From the NCBI GenBank assembly GCA_027014955.1, contig JALWDA010000082.1, positions 1-41,627 on the forward strand: a stretch of 41,627 nt of DNA, read 5' to 3'. The notes beneath the pieces were generated by a model that made no database searches, was not told the origin of the DNA, and worked only from the letters and a program-made list of their open reading frames with translations. The translations under genes and the position numbers were made by a program. This DNA comes from Desulfurococcales archaeon. GTDB lineage: Archaea > Thermoproteota > Thermoprotei_A > Sulfolobales > Fervidicoccaceae. Positions 31,995 through 40,986 of the stretch are shown piece by piece. How positions within the stretch are numbered: the stretch's first letter is position 1; every line of letters starts with the position of its first letter.

Positions 31995-32552
31995 TTATCC
32001 AGTAGCCTTCCTCTGAACTTCTATGACAATTACACGCCCCTTCTGTGTTGTTTTGGTAACTTTCCCGTCGGGGAAGTTTTTGAAAATGCCCTCAACGAGG
32101 CTTAGTGCATCATCGGGTTCCATGGCGATATCCACTGGCACTGTGGCTATCAGTGCAATGTTTCCCCTCATATCTTGGAAGAAAACGTTGTTCTTCCCCA
32201 GAATGAAGGATAGTAGAGAGTATGTAAGGCGAAGGGGATCGCTACCCTTCCCCAGCTTCGTGTACAGCAGCATCCCAATACTCTCTCCTAGTGTTCTCCA
32301 ATCTATCTTGCCTCCAAAGGTTTTTTCCAGGCAGAGCCTGAATCCGAGGCTCCTCAGCGTATCAATAACCACAAGTTCCAGTGCGGCCTCACGGGGGTCG
32401 TCATAGCCTGCCTTGTCTAGCAATATGGCTGCGTCAATTAGTGTGTTAGTGAAGGAGAAGAGAGTTGAACCCCGTTTTGCAGCTATCCGGTTAAGCTCCT
32501 CCGCCTTTCCAGAGTCGGCTGCAAGCATCTTCCTGTTAAGGGGCATCGCCAT
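31995..32552 (-). CDS. Hypothetical protein with RHH-like N-terminus, paralog of the adjacent gene
   Basis: beta-alpha-alpha-like N-terminus; shared IGMLL block with the 32578..33165 product. Confidence 0.65.
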   Translation of the reverse strand: MAMPLNRKMLAADSGKAEELNRIAAKRGSTLFSFTNTLIDAAILLDKAGYDDPREAALELVVIDTLRSLGFRLCLEKTFGGKIDWRTLGESIGMLLYTKLGKGSDPLRLTYSLLSFILGKNNVFFQDMRGNIALIATVPVDIAMEPDDALSLVEGIFKNFPDGKVTKTTQKGRVIVIEVQRKATG

Positions 32553-32577: not shown

Positions 32578-33165
32578 TTACCTTATTTTGCGGAAATCCG
32601 CTAAAATGAGACCAGGGTTGTAATCTACCTTCAGTTCTTCATAACCCATGGAAAACAGGGCTCCCCTTAGCAAATTTAGGGGGACCTCTATAAGTTTCTT
32701 TGAACGCCCGTGTATTATGAGGGCTATTTTCAGGCCCTTACCCTGTCGTTGCACCTTTATCTGGGAAGCTTCGGGGAAAAGCGCCCTTAGGAAGTATTCT
32801 ATCTTTACCTCGTCTCCCTGTTCCTCGTCGAGCGTGAGCAGCATCCCAATGTTGCGTCCAGTCTCCAGAGCCTCAGCAAGAGCCTCCCTGTACTCTTTTT
32901 CATCCATACTTTCTACAAGCTTGCTCAGTAGGGGCAGGGGCACCATGGTGAATCCTATGCGAGAGAAGGCCTTCTGTACAAAATACTCTTTGTCTACTGT
33001 GTTGAGATTCCCGTTGTTGAGAAGGGCTATCTTGATACCTTTCTCAACCAGCATGTTTATGAGGGTCTTAAAAGGCACTCCTATACTCGATGAAATAGAA
33101 TAGAGTTGTTCCACAAGATCAGCCTGGAGAGGAACCAGCTTAACATTTCTTCGGGGAGCCCCCAA
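32578..33165 (-). CDS. Hypothetical protein with RHH-like N-terminus, paralog of the adjacent gene
   Basis: NVKLVPLQADLVEQLYSISSSIGVPFKTLINMLVEKGI resembles beta-alpha-alpha RHH layout; same size and orientation as neighbour. Confidence 0.65.
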   Translation of the reverse strand: MGAPRRNVKLVPLQADLVEQLYSISSSIGVPFKTLINMLVEKGIKIALLNNGNLNTVDKEYFVQKAFSRIGFTMVPLPLLSKLVESMDEKEYREALAEALETGRNIGMLLTLDEEQGDEVKIEYFLRALFPEASQIKVQRQGKGLKIALIIHGRSKKLIEVPLNLLRGALFSMGYEELKVDYNPGLILADFRKIR

Positions 33166-33415: not shown

Positions 33416-34966
33416 TTAGGCGGATATCTTCTTGTTAATGAAGAACATTACTCCGAGGGCTATTAGTATGGCTATGATGCCTACAGCTATTCCAGCCTGG
33501 GCCAGACCCTTCGCTCCTGATACTGCCTGGACCTTATTGTTGAGGTCATTGACCTGGTTCTCAAGGTTAGCAAGCTTGTTGTCAAGGTTACCGAGTTTCT
33601 GGTTAAGTGCATCTACGTTGGATTGTAGCTGGTTAAGGTTGTTCTGTAGCTGGTTCAGCTGGCTCTGAAGGGCATTAATCGTGTTCTTGAGGTTATTCAC
33701 GTCATCCCTTACTAGGTTGACCTCGTTCCTAACGTTATCCACATCCGTCTTTTTGGCAAGGTCTCCAAGCTGCGCCTGTAGGTTCTGAACGGTTGCTTGC
33801 AGTGTATTGAGCTGGGTCTGGAGACTGTTGAGGTTATTCTGTAGCTGGCCTAGGCTCCCCGTGAGCTGATTTATCTGGTCAGTAAGCTGACCAACAGTGT
33901 CTGAGAGGCTGGTGACCTGGTCACTCAGCTGAGCAGTCTGGCCCTCGAGGTCGCCCAGTCTGGACTCAAGGTCTGTTACCTGGCCCTCCAGGTCCGCTAC
34001 TTGCTGACCTACGTTGACAAGAGTTATGAACTCTATTGTCTGAGAAGCCGTTTCTCCACCATAAGTGGCCTCAACAGTCAGCATACATGTCCTATCTAAC
34101 CCAGGTGCAGGTATCTGTACACTTCCTACGAACATACCTATATCGGCATCGTAGGTTAACTCAAACTCTATTGGTGGCAGACCCATTGCTGCCCTAGGGC
34201 CGCTTGTCAGATACCCTCTCACAGTAGCATCGCTAACTTCTGTGTTTCCATAGTATACCTTGGCCTTTACTTCCAAAGTCTCTCCCTCACGTGCAACTCC
34301 AAACAGAGGCTTGCCATCCCTAGTTATAGCCTCGATAACAACACTGAGCTTCTGTGTAGTGAGTACAACATCGGCTGTAAATGTACCGGGTATATTAGTT
34401 ACATCAACGGTTTCTACAACGGTGATGAAGCCCTCCTTCTCAACCTTAACTGTATAGGTGCCAACTTCGCCTACTGTTACTTCATATACGCCTGAGGCAT
34501 CGGTAACATCAACCGCAACAGTAGCTCCATCCATCAATACGGTTACAGTGGCTCCTTCAACAGGGTTACCTGCCTCGTCTATAACAGTTCCACGTATGGT
34601 TGCAAGGGGCGACACGAACTGAACTGTTGCCGTCGCTTCCTCCCCTGTAGCAGTATCTTTTACCGTGATGGTATAAGTTCCAAACGGAAACAGATTGTTG
34701 GCTTCACTGGGGAACGATAAAGGAGCAGCGCTGTAGGTACCATCATCGCTCACCCTTACCTGATCAAGTGCCACCAGGGCACCATTGGGGTTCTCGATAA
34801 CTATTGAGACTAGGGCATTAGGTGTCGCGAGGCCGCTTATAACAAGCTGTTCTCCCGGATAGTAGGTATCCTTCTCAGTTGATACGGTTATTGCTGCGAC
34901 AGGTACAAGTGCTAGCATTATCGCCAACCATGCTACTAGGATTATGCCATTTTTCCATTTTTTCAT
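33416..34966 (-). CDS. Secreted membrane-anchored coiled-coil protein (SlaB-like S-layer stalk candidate)
   Basis: Signal peptide, N-terminal beta/Ig-like region (KDTYYPGEQLVISG), carboxypeptidase-regulatory-like domain (IRGTVIDEAGNPVEGATVTV), ~160-aa Q/N/L coiled coil, C-terminal TM (AGIAVGIIAILIALGVMFFINKK). Confidence 0.85.
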   Translation of the reverse strand: MKKWKNGIILVAWLAIMLALVPVAAITVSTEKDTYYPGEQLVISGLATPNALVSIVIENPNGALVALDQVRVSDDGTYSAAPLSFPSEANNLFPFGTYTITVKDTATGEEATATVQFVSPLATIRGTVIDEAGNPVEGATVTVLMDGATVAVDVTDASGVYEVTVGEVGTYTVKVEKEGFITVVETVDVTNIPGTFTADVVLTTQKLSVVIEAITRDGKPLFGVAREGETLEVKAKVYYGNTEVSDATVRGYLTSGPRAAMGLPPIEFELTYDADIGMFVGSVQIPAPGLDRTCMLTVEATYGGETASQTIEFITLVNVGQQVADLEGQVTDLESRLGDLEGQTAQLSDQVTSLSDTVGQLTDQINQLTGSLGQLQNNLNSLQTQLNTLQATVQNLQAQLGDLAKKTDVDNVRNEVNLVRDDVNNLKNTINALQSQLNQLQNNLNQLQSNVDALNQKLGNLDNKLANLENQVNDLNNKVQAVSGAKGLAQAGIAVGIIAILIALGVMFFINKKISA

Positions 34967-35019
34967 GAGCGTTCACCATGTCCTTGATTTTCAGTTTATT
35001 AGGTATAGACAAACTTGAA

Positions 35020-35036
35020 TTATTAAATATATAGAT
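35020..35036 (-). promoter_or_regulatory. Candidate TATA region for the stalk-protein gene
   Basis: Minus strand reads ATATATTTAATAATTC about 55-70 nt upstream of the start codon. Confidence 0.35.
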
Positions 35037-35093
35037 TTTTACACCTAACCCGACGAAGCGATGCTATTTTGTATTATTCGGGAAAGGTTAATT

Positions 35094-35124
35094 AAAAAAC
35101 ATTTTTTATATTTTGTAAAAATTG
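35094..35124 (-). terminator. Candidate multi-U terminator region downstream of the large S-layer gene
   Basis: Several T-runs on the minus strand, including T6 at 35094-35099. Confidence 0.35.
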
Positions 35125-35143
35125 CTCAAATGGTCTCCAGAGC

Positions 35144-38100
35144 CTACTCGCTCACCGTTATCGTTAGCTGCAGAGGTTCTTCTGACAGCGGTTCTCTCTC
35201 TGCAAGGTTCCAGAAGAACACCTTCACCTCATACTCGCCAGGAGCTGCTGGTATCCATGGCACGTTAGCGATTGTGCTCTCACCAGCGTTGATGGTGATC
35301 CTCGCTGTGCTTATTCCAGCGGGGACTCCATTCTGATAGGCCACTAGTATGATGTCGACAGTGACAGACCTAGTAGTGTCGATGTTGGCCACGGGCACCT
35401 GTAGCAGTATTGGTGTTCCAGCTTTGGGTGTGGCAGGAGCACCTGTTATGTCAACCACACTAACCTCGTCGGGAGCGCCTGGGCTCACCGGTGTTGGCGT
35501 CGTGAAGCCTATCTGTAACATTACCTCGCTTGTGACCTTAGTGCTACCATCAGCGGCTATTGGGTCCTCATAGCTTATCTTGAGTATGTCACCTATGCTG
35601 AAGAATGGCGGGAATCTGTCGGTATCAATGGTGTATGGTGCTTCGAACACACCAGTATTGTCACCTGTCTCTATCAGTGTTATTATATCGCCAGCTGGGT
35701 CAACTGGCTGTAGCTCTCCTCCTACCATTCTCCAGCTTGTTATTGTCACATTGACTTGTTGCTGGCTGTTGGGATCTGTGTTCTGATCTGGGTCCACTAC
35801 TCTTATGATAATGTCCTCTTTGTCGTTGTAGAAGTCCTTCTGAGGCTCCACACTCACTTCACCGTCCCACGCAATTACTTGCAGCCATTTGACTACTGCC
35901 CTGCTATCGCCATCAGCTGCTACTGGGTCTACGAACCTGAAGACTATGTTGTCTGGAACTGTCACTTCTAGGGCAGTGTTGCCACTATCGGGGGTGTCCG
36001 TGTAGTTTAGCTGTATTGTTGCTTCGAATGTTGCTGGCTCGTCTGCCGGCTGTAGTGTGTTTATCCTGAGTTCGTCGTTGAGCATGCTTCTTATGTATAT
36101 CTCGTTTCCAGCTAGGTTAAGGTTGTTGCCATTCTCCCATGTTATTATATAGTCGGGGTCTTTGACGTATATGGTGACCAGGCTGTGAGGTCCGACACTT
36201 TCCACATCAGCTCCCAGTGATCCTATGTAGAACTCGGAGTCATGGGCGATGACCATGCCGCTAGCCTTTGCAGTATCGGGTCTCTGATAGGTGACGCTTG
36301 TTAGCGCGGTGAAGTTATCATAGTATGACAGCTGGAAGCTCTTGTAGGGGTCGGTTATATCGAAGGGAGCATCAACACCTACCCTGAATACTCCCTCGAA
36401 TATACCCGTGTTCGCTCCGGTTTCTGTTAATGTAGCCATTCCAGTAATATCACCGTCGACCTCTATGGTTACCTGCTCTTCAGCTGCACTGTCCGCGTTT
36501 TCGTCGGGCTCAACAAGTGTTATGTATATGTAGTCTCCCATAGAGAAGCTGGTGGCATTTATCGTTAGGGTCGCTGTACTGGGTCTTATGGTGGCAGTGT
36601 CTACATAGTCGTTTCCTGAGAATGTGTAAGTTACTTTAACCGTAGCTCCAACGAAGGGCAGTGGATCACTGCTGATGTCAACGGTGAACTGACCAACGAA
36701 TACACCAGTGTCAACGTCGGTCTCGACTAGGTTTCCTAGAGGTGTCAAGAATGGAGCAGCGCTGCGTGGCGTGCCGTTCCAAAGTATAACTTCTGCCGTT
36801 ATATCGGCGGGTGATATTGTGTCCTTTATTCCTGGATTGGTGTTAGCGAATGGGTTGTTGACGGTTACGTATACCGTGAATGTCCCGTCCTTTGGCATTG
36901 GGTATGTATCACGGTCGAGGGTTACGCTTATCTCTGGTCTCGATATTAATACCGTTGCGCTTGCAGTCTTCCCACTGTATAGGTCAACCCACCTGAATAC
37001 GACCTCATCACCATCAGTTGGCGGCTCGTCAAGCCATGTAAGGTCAAAGGTTGCCTGGAATACACCTGGCTCTACTTCTTCGAAGAAGATGAAGAAGTCT
37101 TCACTTGCATTGAATAGCACATTACCGTTGAGCAGGACTTCTAGGCGGCCTTGCTCGTTGTTTGCAAACGTTATGTTAAGAGGATCTGTAGCCGCAATTG
37201 CCTCACCAAAACTGTCAGTCGCGTCATCACCTCCGTCGTTGAGGTCCATGTCGGTTAATGTTAGGGTTACCTGCTCAGTTGGCAGCGCTTGTGTAGGTTC
37301 TACTGAGAGAGCTGGGTCATAATCCGTCATTGTTACGTCTCTAGCAGCTACGATACCGTCTGCTGACGGGTCATAGTAGTCTACGTTAATTGACCTAGGA
37401 GTATTAACATAGAACACTTTGTTGGCAGTATCAATGTCCTCAGTGTTGTCATAGTTCAGATACACCTTCCCTACAAACACACCAGTGTTATCATCGGTCT
37501 CTTCAAGGCCTACTATCATGTTGTTAGTAGCTGCCCCGAAGTCTGGATCTGTTATCGTCACGTTTACATATATCATGTCTTTCGCACCGGTATCTAGGTT
37601 GGCATCAGCGTCAGTAACCTCTATTGTTAGCTCAGTAGATAGGCTAACGGTAGATGGCAGACTTATTAGACCGTTTGTCCTCTGCAGGTACACGCTTGCA
37701 CTTGTGTCGTCTTCGCTTATTATTTCTATGTGGTCAAAAGGTATAGTGTTGTTGGCGATGGTTGTGAAGTTGACCCATGTGTAGACATTACCCATGTAGT
37801 CTTGTGTTAGGTTATAATATTCCATACCACTGGTAGTGTACCCGAGTTTATCAAATATGTCATGAAGCGTTATGCTTCCTTTGAAGTGAGCGGTGTTGGC
37901 ACCAGTCTCTGTTACTGGGACCGAGAGCGTGGTGGAAGCTACTTTGTAGACGTCGCCTAGCCTGTCAACTAGTGTAAAGTTAAGCTCATAGGTGAAGGAC
38001 TCGGCGCTAGTGGGGTCTTTGTTATAGTCCTGGTCATGTATAGTGACGTATATTGTCGCATTGCCGAAGGCTGGTACATTTTCTCTGTCAAGTAACACTT

Positions 38101-38653
38101 GTGCTGTGAAGGGCTTGTATGTTATCGTGACTGTAACAGTCCCTCCGGGTCCTATGTATTCGAATGTTATTTGATCGTCCTCGGCTAGAGTTACCTCAAA
38201 GTCGTTGCCGGTGCCATTGTATAGGAACTGGCTGACAAGCGGGTTCTGAGGAGTTGCAGGAACATTCGTTGAGTTGAATATTACATATGCAACGAATACA
38301 CCGCTTGAACCCACTTCCTTCAGCTCAATTGAGTCCTGTATTACTCCGTTTTTGTACATGTTGACTGTTATGTTACCCGAGCCTGCTCTTGCTGTGTCTG
38401 TCACCTTCACTTCTATCCATGTTCCATTGATGAAGTAGCCTCCGTGGGGGTCGGCTGATGTCTGTATTGTCGGTGTGGCTGCTTGGGCTGGCGTGAGGGG
38501 TACTAGTGGTAAGGCCATTAGGATTACTAGTATGAGGGAGAGGATTTTCCTTGTTTCCATAACGGTTTCCCCCATGTGATTACCTTGTCCAGGTCGTGTT
38601 TTATGATAGAGTGTTAGTGTGTTTATAACTGATTTGACTACATTTGTATACAA
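35144..38653 (-). CDS. Large secreted multi-domain beta-repeat protein (S-layer lattice candidate, SlaA-like)
   Basis: Signal peptide METRKILSLILVILMALPLVPLTPAQA; about 8 modules with DxDxNxD loops and ETGxNTGVFxG-type motifs; no C-terminal TM; likely start ATG near 38575. Confidence 0.85.
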   Translation of the reverse strand: MYTNVVKSVINTLTLYHKTRPGQGNHMGETVMETRKILSLILVILMALPLVPLTPAQAATPTIQTSADPHGGYFINGTWIEVKVTDTARAGSGNITVNMYKNGVIQDSIELKEVGSSGVFVAYVIFNSTNVPATPQNPLVSQFLYNGTGNDFEVTLAEDDQITFEYIGPGGTVTVTITYKPFTAQVLLDRENVPAFGNATIYVTIHDQDYNKDPTSAESFTYELNFTLVDRLGDVYKVASTTLSVPVTETGANTAHFKGSITLHDIFDKLGYTTSGMEYYNLTQDYMGNVYTWVNFTTIANNTIPFDHIEIISEDDTSASVYLQRTNGLISLPSTVSLSTELTIEVTDADANLDTGAKDMIYVNVTITDPDFGAATNNMIVGLEETDDNTGVFVGKVYLNYDNTEDIDTANKVFYVNTPRSINVDYYDPSADGIVAARDVTMTDYDPALSVEPTQALPTEQVTLTLTDMDLNDGGDDATDSFGEAIAATDPLNITFANNEQGRLEVLLNGNVLFNASEDFFIFFEEVEPGVFQATFDLTWLDEPPTDGDEVVFRWVDLYSGKTASATVLISRPEISVTLDRDTYPMPKDGTFTVYVTVNNPFANTNPGIKDTISPADITAEVILWNGTPRSAAPFLTPLGNLVETDVDTGVFVGQFTVDISSDPLPFVGATVKVTYTFSGNDYVDTATIRPSTATLTINATSFSMGDYIYITLVEPDENADSAAEEQVTIEVDGDITGMATLTETGANTGIFEGVFRVGVDAPFDITDPYKSFQLSYYDNFTALTSVTYQRPDTAKASGMVIAHDSEFYIGSLGADVESVGPHSLVTIYVKDPDYIITWENGNNLNLAGNEIYIRSMLNDELRINTLQPADEPATFEATIQLNYTDTPDSGNTALEVTVPDNIVFRFVDPVAADGDSRAVVKWLQVIAWDGEVSVEPQKDFYNDKEDIIIRVVDPDQNTDPNSQQQVNVTITSWRMVGGELQPVDPAGDIITLIETGDNTGVFEAPYTIDTDRFPPFFSIGDILKISYEDPIAADGSTKVTSEVMLQIGFTTPTPVSPGAPDEVSVVDITGAPATPKAGTPILLQVPVANIDTTRSVTVDIILVAYQNGVPAGISTARITINAGESTIANVPWIPAAPGEYEVKVFFWNLAEREPLSEEPLQLTITVSE

Positions 38654-38781: not shown

Positions 38782-39273
38782 TTAAGGCTCTCGTATGGGT
38801 TCCCGTCTGAGCCTTACGCCGTCTCCGATTATCCAATATTCTCCGTCTTCCCTGACCTCAAGCTTGAAGATAGGGGGCTCTTTTTTTACACGTTCGAGTA
38901 CTTCTCTTGCTTTTTCGAAGGCCTTTTCCCTTCTTGTTGCAGTTACTATTATTAGTATGGTGGGCTCTCCCGGTTTTAGTTCGCCGTTGTTGTGGAGTAT
39001 TATCGTGGTTTTTACTTGGGGGTCTCTTTTCTGGTCTTGAGCGATTTTGTCGAGAACTTTGCTCGTGTGAGGCTCGTATGCTTCATATACTAGTTTCTTA
39101 ACTTGTTTACCATTTACGCGACCCTTTACGTGGCCTAGGAAAATCACCGTGCCCCCCGCTTCTTCTTCACCAAGTTCCGATATGGTTTTGTTAAGTATTT
39201 CTGGGATTTTTTCGAGGCTTAACCTATCAACGCGTCCGTGGAAGAGTGGAGTTTGTTTTTCTTTCGCGTCCAA
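38782..39273 (-). CDS. moaE: Molybdopterin synthase catalytic subunit MoaE
   Basis: GGTVIFLGHVKGRVNGKQVKKLVYEAYEPH; KKEPPIFKLEVREDGEYWI. Confidence 0.92.
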   Translation of the reverse strand: MDAKEKQTPLFHGRVDRLSLEKIPEILNKTISELGEEEAGGTVIFLGHVKGRVNGKQVKKLVYEAYEPHTSKVLDKIAQDQKRDPQVKTTIILHNNGELKPGEPTILIIVTATRREKAFEKAREVLERVKKEPPIFKLEVREDGEYWIIGDGVRLRREPIREP

Positions 39274-39277
39274 GGGT

Positions 39278-39535
39278 TTATCCCCCTGAGGGGAGGGGCA
39301 TTAGTGCTACTTCATCCCCGTCTTTGAGGGGGTCTGTGTCTTGTGCTGGGGAGCCGTTTTTGAGGATGTTGAGGAGGGGGGTTCCGTAGTATTTGCGTAG
39401 TTGTGGTGTTTTTGTTGTTAAGTGTTTTATTAGGTCCTCTATAGTTGGGTTGTCTTCTTGTAATTCTATTTCTAGTTCTTGTTTTCCAGAGAAGAGGTCT
39501 TTATAGAATGAGAGAAATCTGACCTTGACTCTCAA
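39278..39535 (-). CDS. moaD: MoaD-family sulfur carrier protein
   Basis: Ubiquitin-like, ends ...GDEVALMPLPSGG (C-terminal GG). Confidence 0.93.
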   Translation of the reverse strand: MRVKVRFLSFYKDLFSGKQELEIELQEDNPTIEDLIKHLTTKTPQLRKYYGTPLLNILKNGSPAQDTDPLKDGDEVALMPLPSGG

Positions 39536-39541
39536 CTTGTT

Positions 39542-39976
39542 TCACCTTTCCCCTGTTTTGCGTTTTTCCAGAACTCTTACATTTTCAATCCTTGTGGTGG
39601 GGTATTGGCCTTCCTCGTCTTTTTCCATGGATTTTACCATGTCCCATATGGTTAGGAGGGCTGCCGTGACTCCTGCTAGGGCTTCCATTTCCACACCTGT
39701 TTTATAGGTGGTCTTAACGGTTACCCTCACGCGTATGCGGGTGTCTCCTATCTCATGCTCTACCTTTACTCCTGTTATAGGTATGTTATGGGTTAGGGGG
39801 ATTATCTGAGGCGTGTTCTTGACAGCCATTATTGCTGCTATCTTACTGGTTTCTATGACGTCGCCCTTAGCTATGCTTCGCTCTTTTATTGCTCTGATGG
39901 TCTGCCTTTTCAGCGCTATGGTGCCCTCTGCTATTGAGATACGTGGTATGTCTGGCTTTCGAGTTATGTCTATCAT
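39542..39976 (-). CDS. moaC: Cyclic pyranopterin monophosphate synthase MoaC
   Basis: GDVIETSKIAAIMAVKNTPQIIPLTHNIPITGVKVE; TGVEMEALAGVTAALLTIWDMVKSMEKD. Confidence 0.96.
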   Translation of the reverse strand: MIDITRKPDIPRISIAEGTIALKRQTIRAIKERSIAKGDVIETSKIAAIMAVKNTPQIIPLTHNIPITGVKVEHEIGDTRIRVRVTVKTTYKTGVEMEALAGVTAALLTIWDMVKSMEKDEEGQYPTTRIENVRVLEKRKTGER

Positions 39977-40986
39977 GTAGGTGATATCCCCCTGTCTTTT
40001 GTGTGGAGAACCTTCTGAAGGGATGGAGGGAACCGGGGTTTTCTCGACAGGAGTGCCCTTACTATGGTCCTCTTCACTCCGGAGATATCTTGTTTTTCCA
40101 GAAAAGGCATAAGGTCTGCGCTATGCTCTTCTGCATAGAGACAGGTCTTTACCTTGGCGTCGGGGGTTATCCGTATGCGTGTGCAATTATAGCAGGCCAG
40201 AGGGTTGTTATATCCCCTGATTAGAGTCACGTTCACCCCATTTTTGGTGATGTAGACCTTCCTGCTATGGGGCTTCTTGATATAATGGTCTCTAGCACGT
40301 GTCCTCAGGTATGTCTCTATGCTGTCGATAGCTGTGTCGAGCATCCTCCACTTTGCCAAGTCCATGCGTATGGTTGGGCGACCATTGCCAGCTTGGTGGA
40401 ATATCGGCATTACTTGGATGACATTTATACCCAGACCAAGTTCTTCTGCAAAACGGAGGACGCGGGGAAACTGAGAAAGATTCTTTCTAAGGGCTACATA
40501 GTTTATCTTTACTGGTATCCCTTCTTTAAGGGCGGCCTCTATTCCCCTTACAACCCTGTTCAAGTCCCCTCCACCCGTAATTTCCCTGAACAGGCCCTCG
40601 TCAAGGGCGTGGATACTAACATTGATATGATCCAGACCGGTAGAGGCTAGTCTAGAGGCCCATTTTTCGAGCAAGTGGCCGTTAGTAGTTAGACTGGTTT
40701 TAAGTCCAAAGTCTGTGAATGCTAATATTATCTTGTCTAAGTCTTGCCTGAGGAGGGGCTCTCCTCCTGTTACCTTTACTTCCTTTCCGCCTAGTTCTTT
40801 GAAGGCTTTAGCTACAAGTACATAATGTCGAGGAGACATTATACCTTGGGAATAAGCTACACCCTCCATGTGGCAGAATACGCATTTGTAATTGCATTCG
40901 TTGTTGACAGATACTCTTAGCCCTTCCAGCGGTCTGCCGTACTTGTCTGTGGGAGGTGAGGTTGTTGGCAAAACTTTTTCCTCCAA
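39973..40986 (-). CDS. moaA: GTP 3',8-cyclase MoaA (radical SAM)
   Basis: LRVSVNNECNYKCVFCHMEG; KVTGGEPLLRQDL; second cluster CYNCTRIRITPDAKVKTCL. Confidence 0.96.
   Translation of the reverse strand: MEEKVLPTTSPPTDKYGRPLEGLRVSVNNECNYKCVFCHMEGVAYSQGIMSPRHYVLVAKAFKELGGKEVKVTGGEPLLRQDLDKIILAFTDFGLKTSLTTNGHLLEKWASRLASTGLDHINVSIHALDEGLFREITGGGDLNRVVRGIEAALKEGIPVKINYVALRKNLSQFPRVLRFAEELGLGINVIQVMPIFHQAGNGRPTIRMDLAKWRMLDTAIDSIETYLRTRARDHYIKKPHSRKVYITKNGVNVTLIRGYNNPLACYNCTRIRITPDAKVKTCLYAEEHSADLMPFLEKQDISGVKRTIVRALLSRKPRFPPSLQKVLHTKDRGISPT

Follow-up and report, generated by a model that had tools for sequence, protein, structure and literature searches.

Genes and features of the locus

We analyzed a 41,627-nucleotide stretch (hereafter the window) from a contig of a 1.42-Mb, 71%-complete MAG, from which further S-layer genes could be missing. 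The window's eIF2gamma is 98% identical to that of 'Desulfurococcales archaeon isolate S141_metabat1_scaf2bin.117' and 69% identical to those of Pyrodictium/Tiamatella MAGs, neighbors that point to a probable vent habitat for the host. Two adjacent ORFs run in the same direction here, as a sequence-only reading of this DNA had described without naming the strand; both are on the minus strand, with a gene for a large lattice protein first and slaB directly 3' of it. Directly 5' of the lattice gene (38782-40986, minus strand) lie molybdopterin synthesis genes, read from the sequence as MoaE, MoaD, MoaC and MoaA-like, which are ordinary chromosomal surroundings. The pair and its parts are as follows:

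35144-38560, minus strand: slaA-like lattice gene (ORF, AlphaFold model, homology to 8c8k_A and SlaA, charge and sequons)
38480-38560, minus strand: signal peptide METRKILSLILVILMALPLVPLTPAQA of the lattice protein (hydropathy; start conserved in relatives)
35147-35797, minus strand: C-terminal ~217 residues of the lattice protein, its last two Ig-like domains (profile alignments)
34967-35143, minus strand: slaA-slaB intergenic stretch, with a T-run (35099-35094), a TATA-like CTATATATTTA (35034-35024) and GGTGA before the slaB ATG
33416-34966, minus strand: slaB-like stalk gene, 516 aa (NF040788; 8qox_B by sequence and fold)
34019-34885, minus strand: three SlaB beta domains, residues about 28-118, 119-205 and 206-316 (model, PF13620, coil-free matches)
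33518-34012, minus strand: SlaB coiled-coil stalk, residues 319-483 (heptad periodicity, model)
33422-33505, minus strand: SlaB C-terminal TM helix, residues 488-515 (hydropathy, model)

The longest ORF of the lattice gene (35144-38653) opens at a TTG at 38653, an unlikely start because a TATA-like TTATAAAC (38628-38621) lies downstream of it and because the signal peptides of relatives start level with ATG 38560. Translation probably begins at ATG 38560, giving a protein of 1,138 aa up to the stop at 35144, or at the alternative ATG 38575 (1,143 aa), and an SD-like GGGGGA supports this pair of starts.

By hydropathy the lattice protein carries an N-terminal signal, no TM segment thereafter and no C-terminal anchor, and its AlphaFold model (relatives as alignment, copy modeled without the first Met, mean pLDDT 86.2) is all-beta. 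Its chain consists of roughly nine Ig-like domains in which DxDxN and ETxxNTGVF motifs recur, in line with the secreted, anchorless ~1.14-kaa protein of repeated beta modules of the sequence-only reading; large size, secretion, beta-rich content and lack of a membrane anchor also characterize SlaA in the wider sense. The protein has 16 N-glycosylation sequons, no cysteine and a calculated pI of 4.05. Its net charge is about -115, compared with -5 for Metallosphaera-type SlaA, -12 for Sulfolobus acidocaldarius SlaA and -206 for the Nitrosopumilus type, and we interpret this strong acidity as adaptive for a salty habitat close to neutrality. A steady N-to-C charge gradient, as seen in ammonia oxidizers including the Nitrosopumilus maritimus S-layer protein, was looked for in the lattice protein and not found.

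The stalk protein is a long-form SlaB

Hydropathy places TM-like segments of the 516-aa protein at its N-terminus (residues 8-26) and C-terminus (492-510), while residues 318-482 show a strong seven-residue hydrophobic periodicity (lag-7 autocorrelation 0.88). The AlphaFold model, again with relatives as alignment (mean pLDDT 83.8, beta domains >90), shows one long helix spanning residues 319-483 and, at 488-515, the TM helix, and Pfam detects CarboxypepD_reg (PF13620) at residues 123-202. This order of parts, from the signal peptide through the beta domains and the coiled coil to the TM segment at the C-terminus, which the earlier reading had also discerned, is the anatomy of SlaB, and PMC6911244 and PMC10903991 describe the same layout for long-form SlaB.

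At full length, the protein matches NCBIfam NF040788 (S-lay_SlaB; E = 3.5e-55) and PDB 8qox_B (E = 1.1e-24). Because coiled coils yield false matches, we also removed the coil, and residues 1-317 alone still matched both NF040788 (E = 4.1e-29) and 8qox_B (E = 5.3e-11). Foldseek likewise ranked 8qox_B first for the model (3.3e-24), ahead of the next match at 2.8e-12. The score of 187.6 bits falls short of the NF040788 equivalog cut-off of 700 bits, a threshold set for Metallosphaera; since S. acidocaldarius SlaB itself reaches just 145 bits, below the window protein, a sub-cut-off score does not exclude membership in the wider SlaB family. Matches of the 516-aa protein to SMC, Rad50, DotF, sigma-1 and other Pfam, NCBIfam and PDB entries were all confined to the coil (residues about 300-500) and were discarded. 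As a genome probe, NF040788 proved unselective, since its coiled-coil part (positions above 300) matched in almost all genomes, and a profile of the beta domains only was used in its place.

Relative to Sulfolobaceae SlaB (NF040788; 8qox_B), the window protein agrees in signal peptide, three beta domains, coil, C-terminal TM, sequence, fold and the slot downstream of the lattice gene, with identities of about 23-30% (38-46% to its nearest relatives). It differs in its coil, which spans 165 residues compared with the 132-residue helix reported for S. acidocaldarius SlaB, and in having no N-glycosylation sequon, whereas S. acidocaldarius SlaB has them. A close relative (G005) carries a second, short SlaB-domain ORF of 243 aa without a stalk (L052:8554-9282).

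The lattice protein links Nitrosopumilus and Metallosphaera-type S-layer proteins

As a single query, the lattice protein had no match in Pfam, NCBIfam or the PDB, nor did it match the curated SlaA models NF040787 and NF041073 (NCBIfam equivalogs). Its relatives located beside SlaB genes form one connected family, and a profile built from 13 members matches the N. maritimus S-layer protein (8c8k_A; E = 2.5e-52), best across the last 218 residues; a 33-row profile, which contains three Sulfolobaceae SlaA, does so at E = 2.6e-89. Conservation peaks in the C-terminal ~217 residues, which align with residues 1517-1734 of the Nitrosopumilus protein and also with the C-terminal end of Metallosphaera-type SlaA. 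Foldseek searches with the lattice model agree: the first four matches are all N. maritimus S-layer structures (1.5e-41 to 1.5e-27), followed by general Ig arrays at 2e-21. TM-scores do not exceed 0.35, low values of the kind that flexible chains of several domains should give.

Turning to SlaA, a lattice profile built without Sulfolobaceae detected seven of seven tested Metallosphaera-type SlaA (2.3e-17 to 1.9e-27) and matched no reversed control sequence. A first hhalign comparison of the 13 relatives against three SlaA only was not significant, whereas larger, separated alignment sets gave a significant result. With these sets, a profile comparison to SlaA of the kind that had been proposed alongside the sequence-only reading was positive for Metallosphaera-type SlaA (hhalign 99.7%, E = 2.1e-26, 628 columns), while the S. 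acidocaldarius SlaA group reached 86.5% at best, over 288 columns near the C-terminus. S. acidocaldarius SlaA was also missed in the single-sequence PDB search and in the first hhalign of the 13 relatives, and was absent among the best 50 Foldseek matches listed for the lattice model. Because of these profile, hhalign and Foldseek scores, we regard the lattice protein as a homolog of Metallosphaera-type SlaA that lies closer still to the Nitrosopumilus protein, with an indirect tie to S. acidocaldarius SlaA.

Each of these known systems shares some features with the window pair and departs in others. The N. maritimus S-layer protein (8c8k/8c8m, PMC11153153) has the same Ig-like array and strong acidity along with the profile and fold similarity, and in Nitrosopumilus-type genomes, too, a SlaB-domain gene adjoins the lattice gene (L251); it is, however, about 1,730 aa long compared with 1,138 aa, and the window host is a hyperthermophile and no ammonia oxidizer. 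Metallosphaera-type SlaA (NF040787) shares gene order and significant profile similarity over the C-terminal half, but at about 1,370 aa is longer and near neutral where the lattice protein is very acidic. S. acidocaldarius SlaA (NF041073; 7zcx) is alike in role, genome position and secreted, beta-rich, anchorless character, but its sequence match with the lattice protein is not convincing. The host order itself also includes SlaA/SlaB pairs of the NCBIfam types, two with the SlaA of PDB 7zcx (G036 and G045) and one Metallosphaera-type (G027).

The lattice family therefore forms a bridge, in that its profile reaches both Metallosphaera SlaA and the Nitrosopumilus S-layer protein, groups with little direct similarity to each other, and the Nitrosopumilus structure becomes a usable template for Desulfurococcales-type coats. 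We did not find this profile link between lattice families stated in the literature covered, which did not extend to preprints. Separately, the lattice protein of one relative (G055; L037:7574-11311) matches the model of the bacterial, anammox Kuenenia Kustd1514-type S-layer glycoprotein (NF052345) through its C-terminal third (E = 3.7e-31), a match that the window lattice protein does not share and that represents a possible link between archaea and bacteria.

Gene order and co-inheritance of the pair

The gene pair proved to be conserved in related genomes. A large gene lies immediately 5' of the SlaB gene on the same strand for 46 of the 47 full SlaB genes of the order, at a gap of -1 to 234 bases, the lone exception being a 766-aa match in G052. 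Of these 46 upstream genes, 34 match the lattice profile and the remainder are Sulfolobaceae SlaA. Of 17 loci drawn from other families of the phylum, 16 have a SlaB-domain gene after the lattice gene; the loci include those of Nitrosopumilus-type (1,710 aa) and Nitrososphaera-sized genomes, presumably ammonia oxidizers and so named by us from genome and protein size. Broad SlaB distribution is not in itself new, because a SlaB homolog has been reported in most Nitrososphaerota and Thermoproteota architectures have been drawn (PMC11153153).

For 43 pairs, the lattice and SlaB trees correlate (distance correlation r = 0.59, 0/2000 permutations) and have oddities in common, namely two types within family f8 and a cassette (G146a) that groups apart from its own family. 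The genome in question, G146, carries two slaAB cassettes of different types (L208 and L209), one of which sits among other families in both trees, a sign that a whole cassette may have been transferred. Because the trees correlate and share their oddities, the data fit a lattice + SlaB cassette that would be inherited, and sometimes transferred, as a unit, and support a single ancestral cassette of this kind in Thermoproteota. The pairing, which had been proposed from architecture only, now draws on sequence and fold homology, conserved gene order and co-varying trees.

A predicted lattice and stalk at the cell surface

With this gene structure, domain anatomy, homology to known S-layer proteins, conserved order and correlated trees, the two genes very probably make an outer coat (S-layer) of lattice protein and membrane stalk, both true relatives of the Sulfolobus and Nitrosopumilus coat proteins. 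The division of labor between SlaA (lattice) and SlaB (stalk) seen in the sequence-only reading accordingly stands, on homology of both proteins as well as gene order, and the two-gene Sulfolobus S-layer extends to hyperthermophilic Desulfurococcales-type archaea by sequence and fold, beyond layout.

Both proteins would be exported via Sec-type signal peptides, after which the lattice protein is predicted, from its homologs, to self-assemble through its chain of Ig-like domains into a porous canopy. SlaB would oligomerize by its 165-residue coiled coil, presumably as a trimer as in Sulfolobus, with its C-terminal helix in the membrane and its N-terminal beta domains holding the canopy. According to PMC10903991, SlaB trimers standing in the membrane hold the canopy through their N-terminal beta domains, close to those C-terminal domains of SlaA that face the membrane; by analogy, contact is most likely made with the lattice protein's C-terminal Ig domains and would fix how tall the pseudoperiplasm is. 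Across the phylum, conservation is highest in the last two lattice domains, where anchor contact is expected. The contact between a positive SlaA and a negative SlaB proposed for S. acidocaldarius cannot apply unchanged, because both partners are acidic here. The SlaA:SlaB copy-number ratio, like the contact site, is taken from homologs. In the spacer between the genes, the T-run and TATA-like box suggest partial termination and a separate slaB promoter, by which slaB could be tuned on its own.

That apparent promoter after the T-run bears on a reading we consider possible, if clearly the less probable one, in which labor is divided as proposed for Nitrosopumilus: the lattice protein would be partly self-anchored by its C-terminal domain and SlaB would be a minor, sub-stoichiometric tether. 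SlaB is reported to be far less abundant than the S-layer protein in Nitrosopumilus (PMC11153153), and both sequence and fold bring the lattice protein nearer to the Nitrosopumilus protein than to S. acidocaldarius SlaA; the window SlaB, however, has the long Sulfolobus form with three beta domains and a 165-residue coil, whereas Nitrososphaeria-type SlaB is about 300-360 aa long with a weaker heptad signal. It is improbable that the pair is an accessory surface pair or paralogue, comparable to the SlaB paralogue M164_1049 discussed in PMC6911244, with the main S-layer encoded elsewhere. The MAG is incomplete and some relatives have more than one cassette (such as G146) or other stalk genes, but the homologs in Nitrosopumilus and Sulfolobaceae are the main S-layer, and this is the sole slaAB locus detected in the 71%-complete assembly. 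Convergence on SlaA/SlaB logic without common descent, as in the 'independently assembled' version of the sequence-only reading, draws on the lack of a significant SlaA match for the lattice protein alone and the marginal link to S. acidocaldarius SlaA, but is contradicted by SlaB homology in the beta domains alone and in fold, lattice homology to Metallosphaera-type SlaA and the Nitrosopumilus protein, conserved order and correlated trees, and we consider it extremely unlikely. The 'divergent' version named in that reading is likewise not supported.

Ribbon-helix-helix genes beside slaAB and possible alternative stalks

For the lattice + SlaB coat proposed here, candidate regulators lie directly 3' of slaB, where two genes have N-termini that we read as ribbon-helix-helix (RHH) motifs:

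32578-33165, minus strand: RHH-A, 195-aa ribbon-helix-helix-like protein (conserved slaAB neighbor; not itself an S-layer component)
31995-32552, minus strand: RHH-B, 185-aa ribbon-helix-helix-like protein (tandem partner of RHH-A)

Neither window protein matched Pfam; one relative passed the Pfam RHH_1 cut-off (7.5e-5), with several others below it. An RHH-A profile matched 79 of 214 genomes of the order. For 21 of the 34 non-Sulfolobaceae slaAB genomes, the match lies no more than 5 kb from slaAB; among the other 13, RHH-A occurs elsewhere in eight (mostly on other contigs) and five have no counted match. The association between RHH genes and surface-layer genes is strong, but its binomial P should not be taken literally, since it ignores shared ancestry and since the nine additional genomes described below came from stretches centered on the RHH pair. 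From position and motif, we would guess that RHH-A and RHH-B regulate the S-layer. More tentatively, and with less than even confidence, the tandem RHH genes may be dedicated transcription regulators of surface-layer loci across the order, whichever stalk is used, SlaB or a longer tetrabrachion-like one; if so, they would represent a first candidate for a circuit that controls S-layer synthesis in archaea, and their linkage offers a testable entry to S-layer gene control.

In nine further genomes, which lack slaAB and were picked up in stretches centered on the RHH pair, the pair adjoins a gene for a protein of 735-1,216 aa that has a signal peptide and a long coiled coil and ends in a TM segment. 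These long stalks are possibly tetrabrachion-like alternatives to SlaB. Such loci include L270:3191-6616, L272:4655-7645, L273:8374-11277, L277:3853-7500, L284:4132-7740, L285:4187-7804 and L286:3888-6092, and the L270 protein shows a weak SlaB beta-domain match (8e-6).
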